Part shown: positions 8,551 through 63,360 of the stretch, one piece after another
Position numbering within the stretch: position 1 is the first letter of the stretch
Layout: every line of letters begins with the position of its first letter
DNA from: Pseudonocardia sp. ICBG1293
Lineage (GTDB): Bacteria > Actinomycetota > Actinomycetes > Mycobacteriales > Pseudonocardiaceae
Length of the DNA stretch: 64,000 nt
Direction: 5' to 3'
NCBI RefSeq assembly: GCF_020131355.1
Contig: NZ_JAHLEL010000006.1
Location: forward strand, 372,001 to 436,000
Position numbers and translations under genes: made by a program
Notes under the pieces: generated by a model
Databases searched by the model: none
What the model was told of the DNA's origin: nothing
What the model saw: only the letters and a program-made list of their open reading frames with translations

Positions 8551-9522
8551 TCAGCCGATGAAGCCCTTCTGGGTCAGCCACTCGCGCGCGACGTCGCGCT
8601 CGTTCTGGCCGAAGGAGGACACCTTGCCGTTCAGGTCCAGGATGGTGTTGTAGTCCAGGGCCTGGGAGATCGGCGCCAGCACCTGCCGGACGGCCGGGTT
8701 GGCGTTGTAGACGTCGGCCTTGATGGTCGGCGCCGCGTTGTAGGTGACGTGGTAGCGCTTGTCGTCGTCGAGGACCTTCAGCTTCAGGCCGGGGATCCGG
8801 CCGTCGGTGGTGAAGACCTCGCCGAACAGGCACTTGTTGTCCGCGGTGGCCTGGTAGATCACGCCGGTGGCGAGCACCTGCGGGTTCTGGGCGGTGAAGT
8901 CGTAGGTCGACTCCAGCCCGCGCAGGCCGTCGTCACGGGAGTTGTACTCGGTCTCCACGCACATCGAGCCGGCCGGTGCCCGGCCCGACTTGATGTAGTC
9001 CGCCATCTGCGACAGCGTCGTGATGCCGAGCTCCTGCGACTTCGCCTCGGTCATGGCGAAGGCGTAGGTGTTGTTGAAGTTGGCCTTGTCCAGCCACTGG
9101 ATCTGGTTCTGCTGCAGGTCACGCTGGGCGACGAGGTCGTAGAGCTCGTTGTCGTCGGTGATCCGGCGGGTCTCCTTGAAGAAGGACGCCCAGGCGGTAC
9201 CGGTGTACTCCCAGTAGATGTTGATGTCGCCGGCCAGCAGCGCCTGGCGGGTGACGTCGGTGCCGCCGGTGTTGCACCGGTCGGTGACGTTGCCGCCCGC
9301 CGACTCGAGCGCGGCGACGGTGATCTGGCAGAGCACCAGCTGCTCGTCGAAGTTCTTGCCGCCGACGACGTAGTTCTGCCCGCTCAGGTCGCCGGCCTGG
9401 GCCAGGGAGCCGCCGGAGGCCGAGGGGCCGCTGCCGCTCAGGCCGCCACAGCCCGCGAGGGCGACGGCCGCGGCGGCGGCCATCGCCGTCAGGGCCAGAT
9501 GCCGGGATCGTCCGAACTTCAC
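8551..9522 (-). CDS. Glycine betaine/osmoprotectant ABC transporter binding lipoprotein (copy 1)
   Basis: 323 residues. Signal peptide with lipobox LAGC (Cys25), then VVGGKNFDEQLVLCQ and YWEYTGTAWASF as in the OpuAC family. Start GTG at 9522 with a GGAGG site 4 nt upstream. It binds a quaternary-amine osmolyte outside the membrane and delivers it to the two permeases encoded upstream. It shares with its downstream paralogue the ending RDVARxWLxxxGFIG and paired Cys residues that may form a disulfide. Confidence 0.93.
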   Translation of the reverse strand: MKFGRSRHLALTAMAAAAAVALAGCGGLSGSGPSASGGSLAQAGDLSGQNYVVGGKNFDEQLVLCQITVAALESAGGNVTDRCNTGGTDVTRQALLAGDINIYWEYTGTAWASFFKETRRITDDNELYDLVAQRDLQQNQIQWLDKANFNNTYAFAMTEAKSQELGITTLSQMADYIKSGRAPAGSMCVETEYNSRDDGLRGLESTYDFTAQNPQVLATGVIYQATADNKCLFGEVFTTDGRIPGLKLKVLDDDKRYHVTYNAAPTIKADVYNANPAVRQVLAPISQALDYNTILDLNGKVSSFGQNERDVAREWLTQKGFIG

Positions 9523-53533: not shown

Positions 53534-53942
53534 GCGGACGAGTCGGTCGGGCGGCCGCGGCGGGACCCCCGGGTCCCGCCGAGGAAAGTCCGGACTCCAC
53601 AGGGCAGGGTGGTTGTCAACGGCAACCCGGGGCGACCCGCGGGACAGTGCCACAGAGAACAGACCGCCACGCGGCTCCCCGGAGCCGCGGGGTAAGGGTG
53701 AAACGGTGGTGTAAGAGACCACCAGCACCCCGGGTGACCGGGGTGGCTCGGTAAACCCCACCCGGAGCAAGGTCGAGAGGCCGTACGTGTACGGCTGCGC
53801 AGGCGCACGAGGGCTGCCCGCCCGAGCCTGCGGGTGGACCGCTGGAGCCTGCCGGCGACGGCAGGCCGAGATGGATGGTCGCCGAACGGAGCACCGCGAG
53901 GTGCCCGGGAACAGGATCCGGCTTACAGACCGACTCGTCCGC
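53534..53942 (+). ncRNA. rnpB: RNase P RNA, bacterial type A
   Basis: Catalytic RNA that trims tRNA 5' leaders. The conserved blocks are in order: GAGGAAAGTCCGGACTCCAC near 53580, CCACAGAGAACAGACCGCC, GGGTAAGGGTGAAACGGTG, GTAAACCCCACCCGGAGCAA, GAGATGGATGGTCGCC and the 3' block AGGATCCGGCTTACAGACC. The ends pair perfectly over 15 bp (P1: 53534-53548 with 53928-53942). The last 27 nt serve as the left attachment site of the integrated element downstream. The gene stays complete. Confidence 0.96.
53916..53942 (+). other. attL: 3' end of rnpB
   Basis: 27 nt identical at 26 positions to 62650-62676 (mismatch A at 53933 versus G at 62667). It contains the CTTACAGACC block and the 3' strand of P1. 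This is the crossover region left by site-specific integration of the element that follows. Confidence 0.88.
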
Positions 53943-53976
53943 CCCGCTCTCCCCGACATGCGCCGGGGGAGCGGGG
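53942..53976 (+). terminator. Hairpin after rnpB, contributed by the element
   Basis: CCCCGCTCTCCCC pairs with GGGGGAGCGGGG around a 10-nt loop, with one bulged T, right after P1. It lies on the element side of attL, so the element supplies the rnpB terminator. Confidence 0.6.
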
Positions 53977-54115
53977 TTCGATCGTTGACCAGCGGAAACT
54001 CTCTCGCGACCTCTCGTCGTCTCTCGACGGTCTGCGACGTCCCACGGCCCAGCGACGGCCCGGGACATGATCATGCTCGTCGCGCTGTCCCGGCTCTTCC
54101 CCACACGCCCGGCCC

Positions 54116-54247
54116 GCTGGTGATCTCCTCGCGGCGCGGGTTCACCCCTGCCAGGCCGGGGAGCGGGGTGCAGGGCACGGGGTCCCGCCTTGCACCCCGC
54201 TCCCCGGCCTGGCTGCCGTTTCGGCGCGCCGTGAGGAGATCACCAGC
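54116..54247. repeat. Nested 132-nt inverted repeat near attL
   Basis: Outer arms 54116-54138 and 54225-54247 pair at 22 of 23 positions. Inner arms 54150-54172 and 191-213 of the same hundred (54191-54213) pair perfectly over 23 bp, with an 18-nt loop. Together they can fold one long hairpin. It lies in a 380-bp stretch without genes. Candidates are a single-strand replication origin, the cis transfer locus (clt) or a strong terminator. Confidence 0.7.
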
Positions 54248-54360
54248 CCCGCCGCACTCCCCTGATCTCCGAGCAGTGTCGGGTCCGGGCGGAGCCCGGG
54301 TCCTTCGGTCTTCATGGCGGCTCCGGGATTCGCCGAGTCTCCTGCTCTACGGTGAGCGGT

Positions 54361-54705
54361 GTGACACCCGATCCGGAAGGCGCGGCCGCCGAGCTGGCAC
54401 GAGCCGAGCACCTCTTGGAGCGCTCGGAGACTGAGCTGACCGAGTGCTCGACCGCCTACGACTCCGATCCCACCGAAGGCAGGAGGATCGAGTACCGGGC
54501 CGCGCTCGAACGGTGGCGCGACAGGAGCCGCGGGATGAAGGCTGCAGAGGACCTATGCCTGACCTACCAGCTCGTCGAGCTTGACGCTGCGCAGGTCGAG
54601 TTCCTGAACCGCTTTCGCGTCGACCGTGAGCAGGACGCCCAGAAGGCCGAGCGGATGATCGAGCTGCTCGACCGGCTCGGCGAAGCGCGACGACGTCTCG
54701 GCTGA
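54361..54705 (+). CDS. Hypothetical helical protein of the AICE
   Basis: 114 residues, charged and almost wholly helical (AAAELARAEHLLERSETELTE, then QDAQKAERMIELLDRLGEAR), with a likely coiled coil and no membrane span. GTG 54361 lies 7 nt after TACGGT (leaderless type); the GTG at 54352 overlaps that box and is less likely. Less extreme GC than the core genome. No function recognised. Confidence 0.65.
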   Translation: MTPDPEGAAAELARAEHLLERSETELTECSTAYDSDPTEGRRIEYRAALERWRDRSRGMKAAEDLCLTYQLVELDAAQVEFLNRFRVDREQDAQKAERMIELLDRLGEARRRLG

Positions 54706-54815
54706 CGACTGCTCCCGAGCCTGGCTCTGGAGATCCGGCGCGTCCTCCGTTGGCCTGGGGCCGGGTAGCCGAGCCACGGCGCCGCGAACGGGCCGGAGGT
54801 GTAGTGAGCGAGCGA

Positions 54816-54856
54816 CGGGGCCGGCGTGGCCGGCCCCGCGCCGCCGGAGGCGGCGC
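54816..54856. repeat. Two adjacent GC hairpins
   Basis: 54816-54838 is a perfect 10-bp stem with 3-nt loop (CGGGGCCGGC arm) and 54838-54856 an 8-bp stem with 3-nt loop (GCGCCGCC arm). They lie between two convergent AICE genes. Termination is most likely; a role in transfer or replication is possible. Confidence 0.55.
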
Positions 54857-54927
54857 CTTGATCCTCAAGAGGCGGATTCGGCAGCACGCGGACGTGAGCC
54901 GTCGTTTCGGTCCGGTCGGGCTGTTGG

Positions 54928-55461
54928 TCAGCCTGCGACCCGCGGGGCCGAGAAGACGTAGACCAGGGCGGGTTCGGTGAGGCCGTCGCCGAACCGGTGG
55001 GTGACCTCGGCGATCCGCTCAGCGCCGGAGCGGTCGTAGAGCCCGGCGGCGGCGGTGTCCTTGGCCATCACGTCGAAGACCACAGTCCGGCCGATGAGCT
55101 GGGCGTGGTGACGTAGGGCGAGGATCAGGAAGCCCGCGAGGCCCGTCCCGCGGTGCCCGGGGTCCAGGAACAGGCGAGCCATGACGGCGATGTCGGTGCC
55201 GTGGCCGCCGGTGTGTTCGATCCAGGCGCGGGCCGCGTCGTCGTCCGGCTGGGCATCGGTGAGCGTGACCTGCCCGACCGGGACGTCGTCGACGACGGCG
55301 GTCCAGCTCCGGATCTCGTGCGGGTGCTCCAGCCATGCCCGGGGATCGGCGATGCCCTCCACCGGGTATCCGTCGTGGGCGTGGACCCGCTCCAGTACTC
55401 CGGCGAGTGCGGGAAGGTCGCCGTCCTGGCGTTCGCGGACGGTGCGCACTGGCTCGGTCAC
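54928..55461 (-). CDS. GNAT family N-acetyltransferase
   Basis: 177 residues (GTG 55461, overlapping the regulator stop by 4 nt). GNAT core: VVDDVPVGQVTLTD, IAVMARLFLDPGHRGTGLAGFLI (acetyl-CoA loop with the RGTGLA turn) and DVMAKDTAAAGLYDRSGAER. Cotranscribed with the GntR repressor. It may acetylate a small molecule or a protein. AICEs often carry such cargo, but the substrate is unknown. Confidence 0.88.
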   Translation of the reverse strand: MTEPVRTVRERQDGDLPALAGVLERVHAHDGYPVEGIADPRAWLEHPHEIRSWTAVVDDVPVGQVTLTDAQPDDDAARAWIEHTGGHGTDIAVMARLFLDPGHRGTGLAGFLILALRHHAQLIGRTVVFDVMAKDTAAAGLYDRSGAERIAEVTHRFGDGLTEPALVYVFSAPRVAG

Positions 55462-56243
55462 TGGTCCTCCACCGGCATGTCGTAGTCGAGAGCGGAGTAG
55501 TCCGCGCGCATCACGAAGCGGGTCACCTCGAACGGTTCTCGGTCGGCGTTGATCCCGGTGTGCCACAGCTCGATCACCGGGACGCCGTCGGGGATTGTCA
55601 TGCGCTGGGCCTCCTCGCGAGTGGGCATCCTCGCCGAGATCTCCTCGCGGACGTGGGTGATCACGTGGCCGAGGGCGGCGAACTGGCCGTAGATGCCCTC
55701 CGGACCGAGGTCGGCGGAGTGGCCGAGGGGGTTGCCCTCGACCAGGCTCCACGCGGCGTAGGTGACACCGATCTGCAACGGCTCGTCGTCGGCGAAGTAC
55801 CAGTTCTCGCGCTGCACGACCGGGGTCCCGGGGTCGATCCCGAGCCGCTCGGCGACTTCCGCGGGTGCCTCGACCCTGGTGATGCGGGAGTCGACGTGCG
55901 GGGTCCGGCCCTGGGCGACGGCCTCGGCGCCGAACGGGCCGAGCTCGTTGGTGGAGCGCATCGCGGCGCTGTAGCGGCGGCGACCGAAGCGCATCCACCG
56001 CGGCTTGCTGCGGACGAACACTCCGCGGCCGTGGTGGGCGCTAACCAGGCCCTCGCGGCGCAGGGCGGCGATGGCCTCGCGGGCGGTGTTGCGGGCGGCG
56101 CCGTGCTGCTCGGCGAGCGCGCGCTCTGAGGGGAGCTTGTCGCCGGGCGGGTACTCGCCCGAGGTGATCGCCTCGCGCAGCTCGTGCGCGATGGCTCGGT
56201 AGTCGCTGTTGGCGCCCCGCGGCGCCCGTGCCGAAGACGTCAT
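55458..56243 (-). CDS. GntR/HutC-type repressor, KorSA-like
   Basis: 261 residues. Winged helix at the N-terminus (PPGDKLPSERALAEQHGAARNTAREAIAALRREGL region) and a UTRA ligand-binding domain. In pSAM2, KorSA of the same class silences pra and so keeps the element integrated. Here the divergent gene is indeed a Pra homologue. The ATG at 56243 sits 6 nt after TATCGT (leaderless type), and a dyad operator overlaps the upstream promoter, so autoregulation is likely. Confidence 0.88.
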   Translation of the reverse strand: MTSSARAPRGANSDYRAIAHELREAITSGEYPPGDKLPSERALAEQHGAARNTAREAIAALRREGLVSAHHGRGVFVRSKPRWMRFGRRRYSAAMRSTNELGPFGAEAVAQGRTPHVDSRITRVEAPAEVAERLGIDPGTPVVQRENWYFADDEPLQIGVTYAAWSLVEGNPLGHSADLGPEGIYGQFAALGHVITHVREEISARMPTREEAQRMTIPDGVPVIELWHTGINADREPFEVTRFVMRADYSALDYDMPVEDQ

Positions 56244-56260
56244 GTCTTCACGATAGCGAA

Positions 56261-56320
56261 CTGGCCTGAGCCAGCCACTTGACCCGCTGGCTCAAGGCTG
56301 CTGTACTGGCTCAAGCCAGT
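56261..56320. promoter_or_regulatory. GntR operator cluster between korSA-like gene and pra
   Basis: Two dyads of the form CTGGC-N4-GCCAG: 56261-56274 (CTGGCCTGAGCCAG) and 56306-56319 (CTGGCTCAAGCCAG, extended by A/T to 16 bp), plus a half site CTGGCTCAAG at 56287-56296. All lie in the 105-bp divergent promoter region. The spacing puts the first dyad at the repressor's own -35/-10 and the last before pra. Confidence 0.75.
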
Positions 56321-56348
56321 GAGGCGACACACAACCAGGAGGTCAGTC

Positions 56349-56771
56349 ATGGCGATCACCAACAAGTTCCCCGTCGCGATGGGCGACGTGTTCCCGCACG
56401 GCGCGTTCGTCGTCTCGGAGGTCGAGCCGGTGCGCGACTTCGACAAGTCCACGCCGGGGCGCCCGGTGCAGCAGCTCGACAAGGAGTCCGGTCTCCCGGT
56501 GTGGTCGGTGTCGGTCCTCGACGCCGACCCCGCTGCACGCCGGACGGACAAGACGGTGACGGTGAAGATCGCCGCGCCGCACCAGCCGGTCCCGCCCGAG
56601 GCCGCCGCGGGGTTGCCGTTCCGCCCGGTCGAGTTCGACGGGCTGACCGTGACGCCGTATGTGCAGGAGTCCGGGGGCCGGCCCCGGGTGGCCTACAGCT
56701 TCCGGGCGGCCGGGATGCGCGCTCCCGGGCACCAGCGTCCCGCCCCGGGCAAGAACCAGGACGCAGCCTGA
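56349..56771 (+). CDS. pra: Pra-like replication/integration/excision activator
   Basis: 140 residues (ATG 56349 with AGGAGG 6 nt upstream). Family pattern: FPVAMGDVFPHGAFVVSEVEPV, VQQLDKESGLPVWSVSVLD, DKTVTVKIAAPHQPVPP and FRPVEFDGLTVTPYV. In pSAM2, Pra activates the rep-xis-int genes. The gene is intact and under the repressor operators, so the regulatory switch of the element still looks whole even though downstream genes are broken. Confidence 0.85.
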   Translation: MAITNKFPVAMGDVFPHGAFVVSEVEPVRDFDKSTPGRPVQQLDKESGLPVWSVSVLDADPAARRTDKTVTVKIAAPHQPVPPEAAAGLPFRPVEFDGLTVTPYVQESGGRPRVAYSFRAAGMRAPGHQRPAPGKNQDAA

Positions 56772-56891
56772 GACGCGCTCTCGCCTGCTCTCGCAGGTGG
56801 AGGGGGGCCCGCTGCAACGGGCTCCCCCTCCGGATCTCCCTCACCTCACGCCCTAGCCAGGCATCAGAGTTCGGAAGGACACCGACCCTAG

Positions 56892-57335
56892 ATGAACACC
56901 CAGCTTGTACCCGCCCCCACTGCCTCGACGGTGGTTCCGGTGGCCCTGCTCGTGGAGGCCGGCCTCCGTCGGGTCGCCGCCGCGATCCGCGATACCGCCC
57001 CGCCGCCGCCCGGGGACCCGCTCGCCCACGCCGCCCGTGCCCGTCGTCTGGCCGAGCTGCACTCGCGCCGGGCCCGCTGGTGGGCGGTGTTGGAGCGCAG
57101 CATCGTCGGCGACCACGCCATGCCACTCATCCACGCCCAGGCCGCCTACGCCGCCGTGACCGCCGCCGAGCGCGAGGCCCGGTTCTGGTCCGACACCGCC
57201 GCCGACTGGCAGGCCCGCGCCGAGCAGCGTCCGACCTCGGAGGTCGCGGGGGCCATGTCGAACTGGGCCGACCTCGGCCTGATCGAGCCGGTCGCCCCTG
57301 GCCTGCCCGGCGCCTCGGCGGTGGTGGCCCGATGA
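56892..57335 (+). CDS. Hypothetical AICE protein
   Basis: 147 residues (ATG 56892), mostly helical with many Ala and Arg: VALLVEAGLRRVAAAIRDTA, then AAYAAVTAAEREARFWSDTA. No membrane span and no recognised domain. Overlaps whiB by 4 nt (ATGA), so it starts the operon that continues into traB-repSA-xis-int. A modest AAGGA site lies 11 nt upstream. Confidence 0.7.
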   Translation: MNTQLVPAPTASTVVPVALLVEAGLRRVAAAIRDTAPPPPGDPLAHAARARRLAELHSRRARWWAVLERSIVGDHAMPLIHAQAAYAAVTAAEREARFWSDTAADWQARAEQRPTSEVAGAMSNWADLGLIEPVAPGLPGASAVVAR

Positions 57336-57691
57336 GTGCGGTGTCGTCCGGGCGGCCGGTGCTGCGGCTGGTCCCGATCACCGACCCGGCTGTCGTCGTC
57401 TCCGGGCCCGGGTGGCGTGACGACGCGGCGTGCGCTGGGTTGGACACCGAGCTGTTCTTCCCGGTCGATGACCGCGCCGTCTCGGTGGAGCCGCCGCGTC
57501 GGGTGTGCCGGGGCTGCCCCGTGCGCGCGGCGTGCCTGGCCGACGTCCTGGCCACGGAGGACCCGGCGCGGCGGTTCGGGATCACCGGCGGCACCACCCC
57601 GGCCGAGCGTCGGACCCTGCACCGCGCCGGACTCACCATCACCACCGTCCCCGCCAGCACGGTCCCGACGGCTGGGGGTGACGTCGCGTGA
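57332..57691 (+). CDS. WhiB-family iron-sulfur regulator
   Basis: 119 residues. Four Cys for the 4Fe-4S cluster at 34, 59, 62 and 68 (C-x24-C-x2-C-x5-C), and the G[VI]xGG turn as FGITGGTTPAERR. WhiB proteins bind sigma factor region 4 and respond to redox or nitric oxide. A WhiB gene within the replication-transfer operon is common in actinomycete plasmids and elements. Its targets here are unknown. Confidence 0.92.
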   Translation: MSAVSSGRPVLRLVPITDPAVVVSGPGWRDDAACAGLDTELFFPVDDRAVSVEPPRRVCRGCPVRAACLADVLATEDPARRFGITGGTTPAERRTLHRAGLTITTVPASTVPTAGGDVA

Positions 57692-57858
57692 GCGCCACCG
57701 CGAAGCCACCGCGCCTGCCGCGGTGCGAGGTCTGCCGTGTCCCGCTGCATGAGCGGCCCGACCCGCGGCGCCGTCGGTGCGCCGACCACCTCGACCAGCT
57801 CGTCCTGGTCTCGCTCACCACCGTCCGCACCACCCGCCGGAAGGGGAACCGTCGATGA
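57688..57858 (+). CDS. Small Cys-pair protein of the AICE
   Basis: 56 residues from GTG 57688: MSATAKPPRLPRCEVCRVPL, a basic stretch (DPRRRRCADHLDQL) and a C-terminal RKGNRR. The CxxC plus C/H residues could bind one zinc ion. Coupled on both sides (GTGA with whiB, ATGA with traB). Unassigned; possibly a small DNA-binding or transfer accessory protein. Confidence 0.6.
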   Translation: MSATAKPPRLPRCEVCRVPLHERPDPRRRRCADHLDQLVLVSLTTVRTTRRKGNRR

Positions 57859-59508
57859 TCACCACCACCACCGTCACCACCGTCACCGCCGTCACTCCGG
57901 CCGCCGAGGTGCCGCTGTCGTGGGAGCAGATCAGCATGGTCGGCGGCGCCGCCCTGGCAGCCGTGCTCTACGTGCTCTACCGGATCGGGCACTACCTGGC
58001 CCGGGTCCTGGAAGCCCTCGCCACGGCCGCCGTTGTGTTCGTCGCCCTCTACCTCGCCGCCAAGGGGATCGTCCTCGCGCTGGTGTGGGCGGTCCGGCAC
58101 TGGCGCACCACCTCCACGGTCACGGTGGTGTCGGCGTGGTGCTGGTTCCTCGGCTGGGCCTCGCTGCTCGCCGTCACCCTCGCCCTGGCGGCCGCGCTGG
58201 GGCTGTGGCGGATCGCGGCGCCGCTGCCGTTCGACCACTGGGCGGGACGGCGGATCCGGTCGTGGTGGCAGCGCTGGGCCGTCTACGCCCCGCGGATGCC
58301 GCGCTGGCTGCGCTCCTGCAACCTGACCGTCCCCGACCGGGCCGGGGCCACGGTCATCCAGGTCAACCCGCTCCGACGGACCGCGACCGCGCCCCGGTCC
58401 CGGCCGCGCCGCGACCAGCTCCCGCGCATCCTGTCGGTGCGTTCCGGCCCGTCCTGGGACGAAGTGACGGTGCGTCTGGTGCCGGGGCAGACCCCGGAGG
58501 ACTTCGACACCGCCGCCCGGGCGCTGGCCGTCGCTCGCGGGGTGAACCGCTGCCAGGTCCGCGAGCTGGGCCCGAACGTGGTGTCGATCGACTACCAGCG
58601 CCGCAACCTGCTCGACCGCGTCATCGACGCCCCGGCCCTCGACGCGATGGCCGGCCTCACCGGCGACGCGATCGACCTGGACCGGGTGCTGTCCGGGGCG
58701 ACCGAGTACGGGACCGAGTGGCGGCAGTCGATCCGCGGCAGCCACACCCTCGTCGGCGGCGCCACCGGCGCGGGCAAGGGCTCCCTGATGTGGGCACCCC
58801 TGCTCTCGATCGCCCCTGCGATCCGGGACGGCCTCGTGCGGGTCAACGGGATCGACCCGAAGGGCATGGAACTCGCGTATGGCCGGCGACGTGTTCCACC
58901 GCTACGCCGTCACCAGCAAGGACGCTCTGGCGCTGCTCGACGACTTGGTCGAGCAGATGGAGACCCGCAAGCGCGAGCACGCCGGAACTACCCGGCTCGT
59001 CCCGATCACCGCCGAGACGCCGTTGGAGATCGTGGAGTTCGACGAGATCGGCGCCCTGCTGCGCTACGTCGGCGACCGCAAGACCCGGGAGGCGATCACC
59101 GAGCGGATCGCCTTGTTGACCACCCAGGGCCGTGCCCTTGGGTTCACCGTGCGCGGGTACGTGCAGGAGCCGACCAAGGACACCGTCCCGGTCCGGGAGC
59201 TGTTCCCGCGCCGCATCTGCCTGCGCGTGGCCTCCAAGTCCCACGTCGGGATGGTGCTGGGGGATCAGGCGTATGACCGGGGTGCGTGGGCGAATCGCAT
59301 CGGGGAGTCCGAACCCGGCGTCGGCTACCTGTTCGGCGAGGGCGTCCGCGAACCCCTGCGGGTCCGGGCGTCCTGGGTGCCGGACGAGGCGATCAAGGCT
59401 CTCGAACGGTTCGTGACCGCACCCTCCCCGGACCCGGCCCGGCGGCCGGCGCCGGTGCTGCCGTTCCGGCCTGGCACACCCGCCCTGCCCGCCGGAGGTG
59501 CCGCATGA
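57855..59508 (+). pseudogene. TraB/FtsK-type DNA translocase, frameshifted
   Basis: Homologous to AICE TraSA/TraB, a hexameric double-strand DNA pump that moves the element between mycelial cells. First frame from ATG 57855: three or four membrane spans (to about residue 130) and the Walker A motif GATGAGKGS at about residue 301, up to GIDPKGMELAYG. From 58881 the homology jumps to the +1 frame (DVFHRYAVTSKDAL, Walker B in LEIVEFDEIGAL, RALGFTVRGYVQEPTKDT) and ends at 59508. One extra base in GGCCGGC explains it. Neither half has both Walker motifs, so transfer is probably lost. A sequencing error cannot be excluded. Confidence 0.85.
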
Positions 59509-61190
59509 CGGCCCCGGAGAGCCCCGCCGCCCCGATCGACCAGGACAAGCTCAGCCGAGCACAGAAAGCCATGCTGGCGCTGTCCAACGAGGTCGCCACG
59601 CAGCTCGCGGAAGACCACGGCGTCTGCGTCCGCCCGCTGGCCATGCGGCGGATCGACCAGAGCAGCGGGCGGGTCGACGTCGTCCCCGTCCCGTGCGGGT
59701 CGACGCGGGAGGACCAGTGCCGCCCGTGCGCGGAGAAGGCCCGACGCCTGCGGATGGTCCAGTGCCGCGAGGGCTGGCACCTCGAGGACGAACCGATCGC
59801 CAAGCCCGCTGACCCGACCGCCGCGCAGAAGGAGCTGATGACGGTCCGGGCGGACCTGCACGCCGCCTACACCGACGCCCGCGCCTAGGGCGACGAGGAG
59901 GAGTGCGAGGAGATCCGCGAGACCGTCGCCGAGGTCGACCAGGAACTACGCGCTCTCGGGGTCCGCGGGCGCCTGGCGCCGCTCGACCCGACACCACAGA
60001 CCGTGCGCCGCTCGACCCGCCGTCGGCAGGACGCACCGAACCTGCCCCGCCGCCCGGTCGAGGACCGCACCCTCGGGCGGGTGTTCGGCGGCAAGTACCG
60101 GCCCTCCACGTTCCTCACCCTGACCCTGGACACCTACGGGCGGGTGGACAAGCACGGCGCCGCGCTCGACCCGGACTCCTACGACTACCGCCGGGCCGCC
60201 CGCGACGCGATCCACTTCCCCAAGCTGCTCGACCGGTTCTGGCAGAACACCCGCCGCTGTGTGGGCTGGGACGTGCAGTACTTCGGCACCGTCGAGCCGC
60301 AGAAGCGTGGGGCACCGCACTTCCACGCCGCCATCCGGGGCACGATCCCGCGCTCGGAGCTGCGGGCGATCACCGCCGCGACCTACCACCAGGTGTGGTG
60401 GCCGCCCCACGACGAGATCGTCTACAGCGGGGACCGGCTCCCGCGCTGGGACCACCACCACCGCGCGTTCGTCGACCCGCAGACCCGCGAGCCCCTGCCG
60501 ACCTGGGACGAGGCCACCGACCCCGACACCCTGACCACCCCGGCGCACACAGTCGTGTTCGGGCCGCAGGTCCACGTCAAGGGCATCCTCGGCGGTTCTG
60601 AGGAGGCCGGCCGCCACATCGGCTACCTGACCAAGTACCTCACCAAGTCCGTCGGGCAGGCCGCGGGCCTCGACGAGTCCGCCACCGCGCGCCAGCGGGA
60701 GCACGCCCGCCGCCTGGCCGCCGAGCTGGCCGTCACGCCGTGCTCGCCGCGCTGCCCGATCTGGCTGCTCTATGGCATCGAGCCCAAGGGCGTCCGGCCC
60801 GGGACGACGCCAGGGCATTGCAAGGGCAAGGCGCATAAGCCCGAGCACCTCGGGATCGCCGGTCGCCGGGTGCTGGTCTCGCGCAAGTGGTCCAACAAGA
60901 GCCTGTCGGACCACCGGGCGGAGCGGACGGCGTTCGTTCGGCAACTCCTTGACCGCGCCGGGGTCCAGCCCGCCTACGCCGTCGACGACGGCCCGTTCGA
61001 GTGGCAGACCACGAAGCCCGGTGACACCGACGTGCCACCCCGGACCGTGCTGCTGCTCCACGCGATCAACCAACGGAGCCGATGGCGCGCGGACTACGAC
61101 GCCGCCGTCCTCGCCACCATCGACGCACCACCCGACGACCGTTCGGCAACCGGGCCCGGCGACGCCCCGGAGGACCGTCGTGCAGCGTGA
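59505..61190 (+). pseudogene. RepSA-like rolling-circle replication initiator, in-frame stop
   Basis: One frame from ATG 59505 to 61190 matches AICE Rep proteins (VCVRPLAMRRID, two CxxC-type pairs near CRPCAEKARRLRMVQCREGW, then STRRRQDAPNLPRRPV, HUH motif in RGAPHFHAAI near residue 271 and the catalytic-Tyr region IGYLTKYLTKS near 372), except for TAG at 59886-59888 (codon 128). The codon after reads on in frame (GDEEECEEIRETV), so a single nonsense change, for example GAG to TAG, is the likely cause. Restart at GTG 60003 would keep the HUH domain but lose the N-terminal Cys region. Confidence 0.87.
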
Positions 61191-61380
61191 GCGACCGGAG
61201 ATCCATCCGCTGTGGACGGCCGCTGAGCTGTCCCACTATCTCGGCGTTCCCGTCCAGACCCTCTACCAGTGGAAGTGGCTCGGCCAGGGCCCGCCCGTGC
61301 ACAAGATCGGCCGCCACCTGCGGTACGACCCGTCCGAGGTGCGTGCCTGGATCGCCGCTTCCCGCTCGGAGGTGGCGTAG
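61180..61380 (+). CDS. xis: Excisionase / helix-turn-helix protein
   Basis: 66 residues from GTG 61180 behind GGAGGA. MerR/AlpA-type winged helix: LWTAAELSHYLGVPVQTLYQWKWLGQGPPVHKIGRHLRYDPSEVRAWI. Directly before int, 2 bp apart. It should bend attL/attR DNA and direct the integrase to excise. Frame intact. Confidence 0.9.
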   Translation: MQRERPEIHPLWTAAELSHYLGVPVQTLYQWKWLGQGPPVHKIGRHLRYDPSEVRAWIAASRSEVA

Positions 61381-61382
61381 CC

Positions 61383-62642
61383 ATGGGACACGTCGAAGAC
61401 CGCTGGTGGCGCGAGGAGCGAGATCCCGCCACCGGCCGAACGGAGCGGCGCAAGACCGAGCGGTTCGGCCGTGGACACCGCTACCGGGTCCGGTTCCTCG
61501 ACCCCGACGGCCGCGAGCGCAGCCGCAGCTTCCCGGACCGCCGGAAGCGCGCCGCCGACGAGTTCCTGGTCAGTATGGAGAGCGACAAGAGCCACGGCAG
61601 TTACATCGACCCGAAGGCTGGTCGGATCACCTTCGGCGACTACGCGGGCCGCTGGCTCGCCTCGCAGACGTTCGAGGCGTCGACCCACAACAGCGTGACG
61701 TGGAGGCTGAACGCGCAGATCCTGCCGTTCTTCGAGCGGCGCGAGCTGGGTGCCATCAGCCCGACCGACGTCCGCACCTGGATCCGCGGAATGCAGGATC
61801 GCGGCGTCGCCGAGAGCTACCAGGCCGGATGCTTCGCGCACGTCTCGTCGATCCTCACCGCGGCGGTCGACGACCGGCTCATCCGCGAGAACCCGTGCCA
61901 CGCCCGGTCGGTGGTCCGGCCCAAACGCCCGCCGGTGAAGGTGATCCCGTGGTCCCGCCAGCGGGTGGACTCGATCCGGGCGGCGATGCGAGACCGACTC
62001 GCGATCTTCGTCGCGCTCGGCGCCGGGTGCGGGCTGCGCCAGGGGGAGGCGTTCGGCATGTCCCCGGACGACATCGACCGGAAGGCCGGCGTCCTGCACG
62101 TCGTTCGGCAAGTGCGCCTCGTCGACAGCCGACTCGTGTTCGCGCCGCCCAAGCGCAACAAGACCCGCGACGTCCCGATCCCGACCAGCGTGCTGGACCT
62201 GGTCGACGACCACATGAATCGGTTCCCGCCGGTGCCGGTCACGCTGCCATGGCGCACCCCGTCCGGCGAACCGACGACCGTCCCGCTGTTGATCACCGAC
62301 GAGCGCGGGGGAGCGCTGCGGCGCAACCACTTCAACGAAGCCGTGTGGAACCCGGCCCGGAAGGCTGCCGGTGTCCAGAACCCGACCCGGCAGGACGGGA
62401 CGCACGCACTCCGCCACTACTACGCCTCGGTCCTGCTCGACGCGGGGGAGAACATCCGGGCGCTCTCCGAGTACCTCGGCCACCACGACCCCGGGTTCAC
62501 GCTCCGGACCTACACCCACCTGATGCCGTCCAGCTCGGCCCGCACCCGCCGCGCCATCGACGCCGCGTTCGGGGGCCGCGAGGATCGACCCGACGGCCCC
62601 GGGCCGGCCCAGAGCGATTCACAGGTCTCTGACCTGCGGTGA
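61383..62642 (+). CDS. int: Tyrosine-family site-specific integrase
   Basis: 419 residues. SAM-like N-terminal arm and core-binding domain (ITFGDYAGRWLASQTFEAST), then the catalytic domain with Arg in GCGLRQGEAFGM, HxxR in THALRHYYAS, His in LGHHDPGF and the nucleophile Tyr in LRTYTHLMPS. The C-terminus ends 7 bp before attR, the usual AICE layout, and it should recombine the 27-bp rnpB repeat. Intact, so the element might still excise. Confidence 0.95.
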   Translation: MGHVEDRWWREERDPATGRTERRKTERFGRGHRYRVRFLDPDGRERSRSFPDRRKRAADEFLVSMESDKSHGSYIDPKAGRITFGDYAGRWLASQTFEASTHNSVTWRLNAQILPFFERRELGAISPTDVRTWIRGMQDRGVAESYQAGCFAHVSSILTAAVDDRLIRENPCHARSVVRPKRPPVKVIPWSRQRVDSIRAAMRDRLAIFVALGAGCGLRQGEAFGMSPDDIDRKAGVLHVVRQVRLVDSRLVFAPPKRNKTRDVPIPTSVLDLVDDHMNRFPPVPVTLPWRTPSGEPTTVPLLITDERGGALRRNHFNEAVWNPARKAAGVQNPTRQDGTHALRHYYASVLLDAGENIRALSEYLGHHDPGFTLRTYTHLMPSSSARTRRAIDAAFGGREDRPDGPGPAQSDSQVSDLR

Positions 62643-62649
62643 CATCTGC

Positions 62650-62676
62650 ATCCGGCTTACAGACCGGCTCGTCCGC
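62650..62676 (+). other. attR: copy of the rnpB 3' end
   Basis: 27-bp repeat of 53916-53942 with one difference. In the P1 helix that difference would give a G-U wobble instead of A-U, so this copy could also complete a working RNase P RNA. No rnpB sequence precedes it. Confidence 0.88.
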
Positions 62677-62718
62677 ACCCCAGCCTCCGACCTGCCGGTC
62701 GACCCGGACCGGCCGGGC

Positions 62719-63360
62719 TCAGGTCGTGGTCGGGGAGGGGCCGAGCGCGGTCCTGACCGCGAACCCGCCGAGCACGGTGCCCGCGACCCATCGCTGGACG
62801 GTCATCACCCGCGGTCGCGCGGCCAGGAACCCGGAAACCGATGCCGCGGTGAGGACGATCAGGCCGTTGACGGTGACGGCGACGGCGATCTGGACGGCCC
62901 CGAGCTGGAGGAGCTGGCTCCCGGTGGCGCCGTCGGCGGGAGTGACGAACTGGGGCAGGAGCGCGGCGTACATCAGCGCGATCTTGGGGTTCAGCAGGTT
63001 GGTGAGCAGCCCCATGCCGAACAGGCGGCGGTCGCGTTCGGGGGCGAGGTCGCGGGCCTCGAACGGCGATCGCCCACCCGGGCGCAGCATGCCCCAGGCC
63101 AGCCACGCGAGGTACAGCGCTCCCGCGATCTTGACCGTGGTGTAGGCGGCGGGGACGGCAACGAACAGCGCCGAGAGACCGGCCGTCGCGGCGAGGAGAT
63201 AGCAGCCGAAGCCCACCGCGGTACCGGCCAGGGACACGAGCCCGGCGCGTCGGCCCTGCGAGATGGCTCGCGAGGTCAGGTACACCATGTTGGGTCCGGG
63301 CGTGAGGACCATGCCGAGGGCGATCACGACGACCCCCAGCGCTGCGGACGGTTCGATCAC
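62719..63360 (-). CDS. LysE/RhtB family amino acid exporter
   Basis: 213 residues, six spans. Family start LGMVLTPGPNMVYLTSRAISQGRRAGL, with the conserved PGPN and the LLTNLLNPKIALMYAALLP segment. Exports amino acids or homoserine-type compounds. First chromosomal gene beyond the integrated element. Followed at a 118-bp distance by the BKACE-type gene on the same strand. Confidence 0.93.
   Translation of the reverse strand: MIEPSAALGVVVIALGMVLTPGPNMVYLTSRAISQGRRAGLVSLAGTAVGFGCYLLAATAGLSALFVAVPAAYTTVKIAGALYLAWLAWGMLRPGGRSPFEARDLAPERDRRLFGMGLLTNLLNPKIALMYAALLPQFVTPADGATGSQLLQLGAVQIAVAVTVNGLIVLTAASVSGFLAARPRVMTVQRWVAGTVLGGFAVRTALGPSPTTT

Follow-up and report, generated by a model that had tools for sequence, protein, structure and literature searches.

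The window, the whole stretch of 64,000 nucleotides from Pseudonocardia sp. ICBG1293 that was analysed here (contig NZ_JAHLEL010000006.1, positions 372,001 to 436,000), contains rnpB, the gene for the class A RNase P RNA, followed by an 8.7-kb segment that ends in a second copy of the rnpB 3′ end and then by a host gene for a LysE translocator (Table 1). rnpB is the sole match to RF00010 in the source genome at E ≤ 0.001. The repeated end of the gene, which reaches one base past the Rfam end of rnpB, is identical in its two copies except for A53933 in the resident copy and G62667 in the distal one, and the distal copy begins 7 bp after the stop of a tyrosine integrase gene whose reading frame is open throughout. 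A sequence-only reading of this locus had pointed to the recurrence of the last 27 nt of rnpB 8.7 kb downstream, just after an intact integrase, and its coordinates, the 26 of 27 identities, the single A/G difference and the 7-bp spacing all agree with what is described here. The repeat is not a product of chance, because a 23-nt pattern from the rnpB end (one mismatch allowed) is rare, with 0–2 copies per genome across 62 Pseudonocardia genomes and at least one in 57, and the reversed pattern, used as a control, has no match in any of the 62. No tRNA gene, the 3′ end of which is the usual site for actinomycete integrative and conjugative elements (AICEs), was found in the window; the site is rnpB. 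On the sequence evidence, the segment is very probably a pSAM2-like element of the AICE type that lies between two rnpB 3′ ends and that its own tyrosine integrase likely placed there by recombining the attP site of a circular form with the end of the gene.

Table 1. Features of rnpB, the element and its right flank (window coordinates).
Feature	Position	Strand	Evidence
rnpB, RNase P RNA class A, target gene	53539-53941	+	RF00010, 275.2 bits, model 1-367 of 367 (full length)
attL core: rnpB 3′ end (3′ strands of P4 and P1, plus trailer)	53916-53942	+	26/27 identical to 62650-62676
Terminator-like hairpin, left end of element, directly after rnpB	53942-53976	+	folding of 53942-53982
Imperfect inverted repeat, 61-nt arms, 10 nt between	54116-54247	.	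arms 84% complementary
ORF, 117 aa	54352-54705	+	no match in family searches
GNAT acetyltransferase, cargo	54928-55461	-	PF00583, E 6.5e-9
GntR/UTRA regulator	55458-56243	-	PF07702 9.2e-25, PF00392 8.6e-22
Small protein, weak likeness to SCO3933 regulatory family	56349-56771	+	NF051478 19 bits (cut-off 80); G014 homologue 82.5% identical
ORF, 147 aa	56892-57335	+	no Pfam match; G014 homologue 48% identical
WhiB-like regulator	57332-57691	+	PF02467 1.3e-16
Small Cys-containing ORF	57688-57858	+	G014 homologue 72% identical
traB/FtsK-type translocase gene, frameshifted ~58870-58890	57855-59508	+	weak family matches and G014 homologue
repSA replication initiator gene, in-frame TAG 59886-59888	59505-61190	+	PF20199 9.7e-21 and 1.5e-76 (two pieces)
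Xis-like HTH_17 protein	61180-61380	+	PF12728 1e-10
Tyrosine integrase, uninterrupted, 419 aa	61383-62642	+	PF00589 1.6e-16
attR core: original rnpB 3′ end, displaced	62650-62676	+	62650-62685 identical to G027 empty site over 36 nt
Right flank: LysE translocator, host gene	62719-63360	-	PF01810; adjoins rnpB in G027, 95% aa identity

Like pSAM2 and other AICEs, the element combines an integrase gene (PF00589) lying beside one att site with genes for a Xis-like protein, a RepSA initiator (PF20199 on both pieces of the gene), an FtsK/SpoIIIE-type Tra protein and a GntR regulator, and its att sites are direct repeats, one of which overlaps the target gene, so that the element brings the 3′ end of that gene with it. 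It differs from them in targeting the RNase P RNA gene rather than a tRNA gene, and in that traB and repSA are interrupted in the window. The sequence-only reading had spoken of a full pSAM2-like gene set, and of this RepSA, the HTH_17 protein (a putative excisionase), the integrase, the GntR-UTRA protein and the WhiB-like protein were clearly recognised and FtsK/TraB weakly, but traB is split between two frames and repSA contains an in-frame TAG. The first traB piece matches PF01580 (E = 0.00044, 20.2 bits against a cut-off of 24) and the second NF041214 (E = 8.8e-6, 24.5 bits against a cut-off of 800), both below threshold, and the gene is assigned through its homologue in another Pseudonocardia genome, G014, which is uninterrupted over 591 aa, passes the PF01580 cut-off and is 62% and 82% identical to the two window pieces. 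The repSA gene is likewise a single open frame in G014, and is uninterrupted also in P. asaccharolytica and M. andamanensis. Hence, unless the interruptions are sequencing errors, the window copy has probably decayed and would no longer replicate or transfer by itself. The integrase residues R219, H341, R344, H367 and Y377, which we take to be catalytic, are invariant in a five-row alignment.

AICEs with tyrosine integrases are described as residing mostly in tRNA 3′ ends, with the pSLS subfamily as an exception (available text of PMC3218068), as the sequence-only reading had assumed for AICEs in general. The integration sites given in the accessible part of PMC9513070 are tRNA genes, protein genes and one intergenic site, and the islands treated by Islander are a class defined on tRNA and tmRNA genes (PMC4383910). 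The window element resembles these islands in that a structured RNA gene is split and restored by the incoming DNA, with the intact gene proximal and the displaced fragment at the far end, and differs from them in that the target is a ribozyme, neither tRNA nor tmRNA, whose restored strands lie in helices P4 and P1 (PMC4383910). It is unlikely, though the chance is not trivial, that rnpB has already been described as a target, either as the non-tRNA site of the pSLS-type AICE integrases in a survey of 2011 or as an entry in a genomic-island mapping study. By their description, the pSLS-subfamily elements share with the window element a tyrosine integrase and a non-tRNA site, and their target is not named in the available text (PMC3218068). 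Full-text searches of the literature, which mostly covered papers outside subscription, gave among the matches listed no rnpB-targeting AICE or other element and, as far as the text of those matches was accessible, no paper naming rnpB as such a site. Neither rnpB nor RNase P occurs in the main text of PMC10654092 and PMC10111431, RNase P is absent from PMC3364876, and in the accessible parts of nine further papers (PMC2705793, PMC5462765, PMC2824730, PMC8776855, PMC2516327, PMC4256840, PMC3541175, PMC10673834, PMC3701705) rnpB or its RNA is mentioned for phylogeny, annotation, promoters or polyadenylation or within reference lists, with no integration site. There is a real chance that an rnpB target is listed somewhere without comment.

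Insight into the origin of the two rnpB ends is provided by another Pseudonocardia genome, G027, whose rnpB is 93.7% identical to that of the window over 521 nt and is followed directly by the LysE gene, with no element or integrase found within 17 kb of rnpB. This is the empty site that the sequence-only reading had proposed to look for in relatives, and no element-free relative was seen that keeps the sequence of 53943-62676 beside rnpB. The gene end of G027 is identical to the window attR over 36 of 36 nt, that is, for 9 nt past the 27-nt core, and it has G, not A, at the equivalent of 53933. As attR matches the empty site and attL does not, attR most likely represents the former host end and the present tail of rnpB was most likely brought in by the element, so that the 5′ part of the gene would be host DNA and its last ~25 nt element DNA. 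The element origin of the tail is strengthened by the sequence that follows rnpB in the window: it shares homology with the left ends of the G014 and G020 elements and has no such match in G027. These same two observations make it improbable that, conversely, the resident tail is host DNA and attR the copy of the element, with the exchange lying to the right of the A/G difference, a view that can appeal to the one base separating the copies and to the better pairing of the resident A in helix P1 (10 Watson-Crick pairs for the resident tail, against nine and one G-U for the displaced one). In G002, G033 and G043 a homologue of the element left end also lies directly after rnpB, with no integrase found within ~18 kb, and these sites are probable scars of lost elements. 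At a further locus (L066, G001:C2:440000-458000, copy at 9262 on the minus strand), an rnpB-end copy without rnpB precedes sequence resembling the element left end, and tblastn with the window element proteins gave no match there.

The arrangement recurs within the genus. Of 55 Pseudonocardia rnpB genes, 11 are followed by an integrase gene or part of one, in downstream pieces of 0.5–18 kb; these 55 genes remain from the 57 genomes with the 23-nt pattern after two were dropped, one with no full rnpB in its piece (G035) and one with no RF00010 match (G040). In three genomes, the source genome (designated G000), G014 and G020, the integrase is of the window class and lies at the far end, towards attR. 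In the other eight it belongs to a second class with ~36% identity to the window integrase, adjoins rnpB and is convergent with it, and several of these genes are fragments or frameshifted. Two integrase classes, distinguished by both identity and placement, thus apparently use one site.

The site is also occupied in other actinobacteria. A scan of named genomes with an alignment of the integrases yielded 56 loci, and in 23 an rnpB-end copy (at most one mismatch in a 22-nt pattern) lies 3′ of the integrase gene, the hosts including Micromonospora, Dactylosporangium, Actinoplanes, Pseudosporangium, Asanoa, Jidongwangia and Winogradskya. The genomes behind 38 of the 56 loci were searched for rnpB, and for 16 of the 23 loci with a copy it lies upstream on the same contig, 7.3–20.6 kb from the copy. 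At one more locus, L134, rnpB is upstream and the contig ends 388 bp after the integrase gene, and in two Glycomyces loci (L153, L154) a related integrase adjoins and converges with rnpB in the manner of the second class. A survey of the order (200 genomes searched, 105 with the pattern) found two or more copies in 17 genomes, where the reversed pattern gave none, and each of the 17 has the end of rnpB itself among its copies. The copies lie on one contig and strand less than 25 kb apart in 11 of these, spread over four families, with the second copy invariably on the 3′ side of rnpB, and an intact or broken integrase gene separates the two in 10 of the 11. Six of these, the source genome included, have an integrase of the window type and placement (broken in two, with one stop in a third), and four have an integrase of ~36–37% identity near rnpB and convergent with it; in the eleventh pair no integrase was found between the copies at E ≤ 1e-10. 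In the remaining six genomes the copies are on other contigs or far apart. A scan of the phylum gave pattern matches in 3 of 246 genomes. Evidently, the RNase P RNA gene is targeted repeatedly, in several families of actinobacteria, by elements of the AICE type and by related elements. The search for an integrase and a distal repeat at other rnpB ends had been suggested in the sequence-only reading, and its central claim of an AICE-type element at the rnpB 3′ end is upheld by these elements together with the empty site.

It is very improbable that the integrase targets some other sequence and that the rnpB end is a mere neighbour or a hitch-hiking match. Such a view might draw on sister integrases of ~50% identity that have no adjacent rnpB-end copy, among them the paralogue at G000:C44 in the source genome. 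In contrast, the presence of an rnpB copy clusters on the integrase tree, where this label requires six changes against a mean of 20.3 after shuffling, none of 500 shuffles being as low; the 62 rows of the tree are 54 of the 56 named loci (without L165 and L167, neither of which has a copy), the window and seven others, and do not include the second class. Furthermore, the attR copies track the rnpB allele of each host except for single differences, and integrases of ~36% identity with a different placement converge on the same site. It is scarcely credible that the 3′ copy arose by segmental duplication or as an rnpB pseudogene fragment and that an unrelated element lies between by accident, for while no more than the last 27 nt is duplicated and the G+C-rich window has many short repeats, integrase-bearing elements in many species and several families are flanked by this end with almost the same left edge, and in G027 rnpB and LysE are neighbours without an element.

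Where in the gene the exchange takes place is indicated by the extent of the shared core. Across 29 attL/attR comparisons, drawn from 26 genomes, the core always starts 1–6 nt ahead of CCGG (L161, L162 and L134 were left out, L125 counts twice and L140 three times because of several copies each, and in five genomes the copy is on another contig than rnpB). This start corresponds to the 3′ strand of helix P4 or the bases just ahead of it, with P4 and its bulged U assigned from the general structure of RNase P RNA, and the right edge is variable, giving cores of 27–140 nt. In the window, the A53933/G62667 difference at core position 18 implies an exchange to the left of 53933, and the constant left edge, together with the analogy to integrases acting at tRNA 3′ ends, places it probably at that edge. 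The crossover is therefore probably in the 3′ strand of P4 and not in P1. The sequence-only reading had taken the P1 strand as the crossover region, and, among copies found with patterns containing CCGG, P1 was rejected as the best reading on the common start of the core and the position of the window difference.

The 3′ strands supplied at these sites pair with the host RNA. Between the host 5′ strand and the resident 3′ strand of P4, 216 of 216 pairs form in 27 hosts, four of the eight pairs of the helix (CCGG/CCGG) being fixed by the parsing pattern, and P4 exists in two forms with both strands changed, AAG/CTT in four hosts and ACG/CGT in 23. In P1, where the CTCG part of the 3′ strand is fixed in the same way, the 290 pairs comprise 277 Watson-Crick pairs, 12 G-U pairs and one mismatch, in P. 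asaccharolytica. This pairing shows the predicted element tails to match the ribozyme of their host.

Directly after rnpB the element carries a hairpin that is a putative terminator by folding. The 41-nt piece 53942-53982 has a folding energy of −28.6 kcal/mol (z −3.85, none of 200 shuffles being as stable), and the corresponding z values are −2.33 in G014, −5.08 in G020, −3.83 at the probable scar in G002 and −0.83 at the empty site in G027. A similar hairpin follows rnpB in several Pseudonocardia without a downstream integrase, and is thus not peculiar to elements; the hairpin of the element may be a captured host terminator.

In the proposed mechanism, the integrase would cut in a short core within the 3′ strand of P4, somewhere in 53916-53932. 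Integration would split rnpB at this core, the copy of the gene end borne on attP would rebuild the gene at once and the original end would be displaced to attR, 8.7 kb away; the Xis-like protein together with the integrase would excise the element. The rebuilt RNase P RNA would most likely be a mosaic of ~380 nt of host and ~25 nt of element sequence, with P4 and P1 formed across both, and it is likely the copy of the gene end carried by the element that keeps rnpB working. The element-borne hairpin following the mosaic RNA may end the transcript.

Within this scheme, three things were observed directly: a relative with the site empty, the agreement of attR with that site, and the recurrence of the arrangement. 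Several points weigh on the other side. Excision, a circular form and integration are predictions from the sequence, and two genes for transfer and replication are interrupted in the window copy. A single base decides which att copy is that of the element, G027 is another species, and the remainder of the spacer between the gene end and LysE differs in both length and sequence between G027 and the window. Pairing with host P1 would be nearly as good for the displaced attR tails (274 Watson-Crick and 16 G-U pairs) as for the resident ones, so that pairing by itself cannot tell which copy is which. Copies sharing P1 alone would be missed, because the search patterns contain CCGG. Finally, 33 of the 56 named integrase loci, a few of them near contig ends, have no downstream rnpB-end copy, which means that integrase relatives of ~50% identity do not all use rnpB; the idea that all of them target it was rejected on this count.

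Gene-restoring integration is known for tRNA, tmRNA and some protein genes. The case described here involves the RNase P ribozyme, an essential catalytic RNA, as the target, with elements that supply strands of P4 and P1. Such a target would be missed by island finders based on tRNA and tmRNA genes, and the conserved att site suggests itself for integration vectors in Pseudonocardia, Micromonospora and Actinoplanes. The mosaic RNase P RNAs amount to a natural experiment, and they raise the question of whether RNA structure limits the hosts that an element can enter. As a tentative and rather doubtful extension, rnpB may be a general integration hotspot of actinobacterial elements with at least two integrase classes, each integration swapping the 3′ end of the ribozyme (P4 strand, P1 strand and, in some, a terminator-like hairpin). 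The incoming tail would have to fit the P4 allele of the host (AAG/CTT or ACG/CGT), so that the range of hosts open to an element would be set by the structure of the ribozyme, and imperfect tails such as that of P. asaccharolytica, with its one P1 mismatch, could alter RNase P for as long as the element is resident.

Other observations concern additional copies and mobile forms. Two to three rnpB-end copies in a row are found in Micromonospora sp. ALFpr18c (L125), Actinoplanes lutulentus (L140) and G512, suggesting that elements have accreted in tandem at rnpB. G476 has three exact copies far apart on one contig (G476:C1:1846367, 3250466 and 3992829), the third being rnpB itself, and the extra ones may have arisen by insertion at secondary sites or be dispersed fragments. 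At G471:C164:6269-6479 a copy follows two partial rnpB matches (model 161-303, below the cut-off) beside a convergent integrase, on a different contig from the full rnpB, and this is either a second, damaged rnpB or a foreign contig. The paralogous integrase of the source genome (G000:C44:56475-57689, L089) is 54% identical to that of the window and not at rnpB, and no clear flanking repeat was seen to mark its target. The inverted repeat 54116-54247 of the window element, downstream of rnpB and upstream of the first gene of the element, is a possible replication or transfer site.

Among the best 20 of 778 phage matches, relatives of the window integrase reach at most 32% identity, and no phage form with an rnpB-type attP was found. 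Short-query searches for mobile attP forms gave weak matches only, with best E-values of 0.03–0.3. Plasmid relatives of the integrase were taken as the 20 best of at least 5000; among the plasmid matches listed, that of NBC_00723 has 50% identity over 44% of the query. Two Streptomyces plasmid records were inspected, NBC_00562 as a whole (45% identity) and 17 kb of JCM17656 (50%), and neither has an rnpB-end copy at up to three mismatches. The former (L246, NZ_CP107792.1, Streptomyces sp. NBC_00562) is an 18.4-kb circular record that encodes FtsK, prim-pol and HTH proteins together with the integrase, and it looks like an excised AICE.

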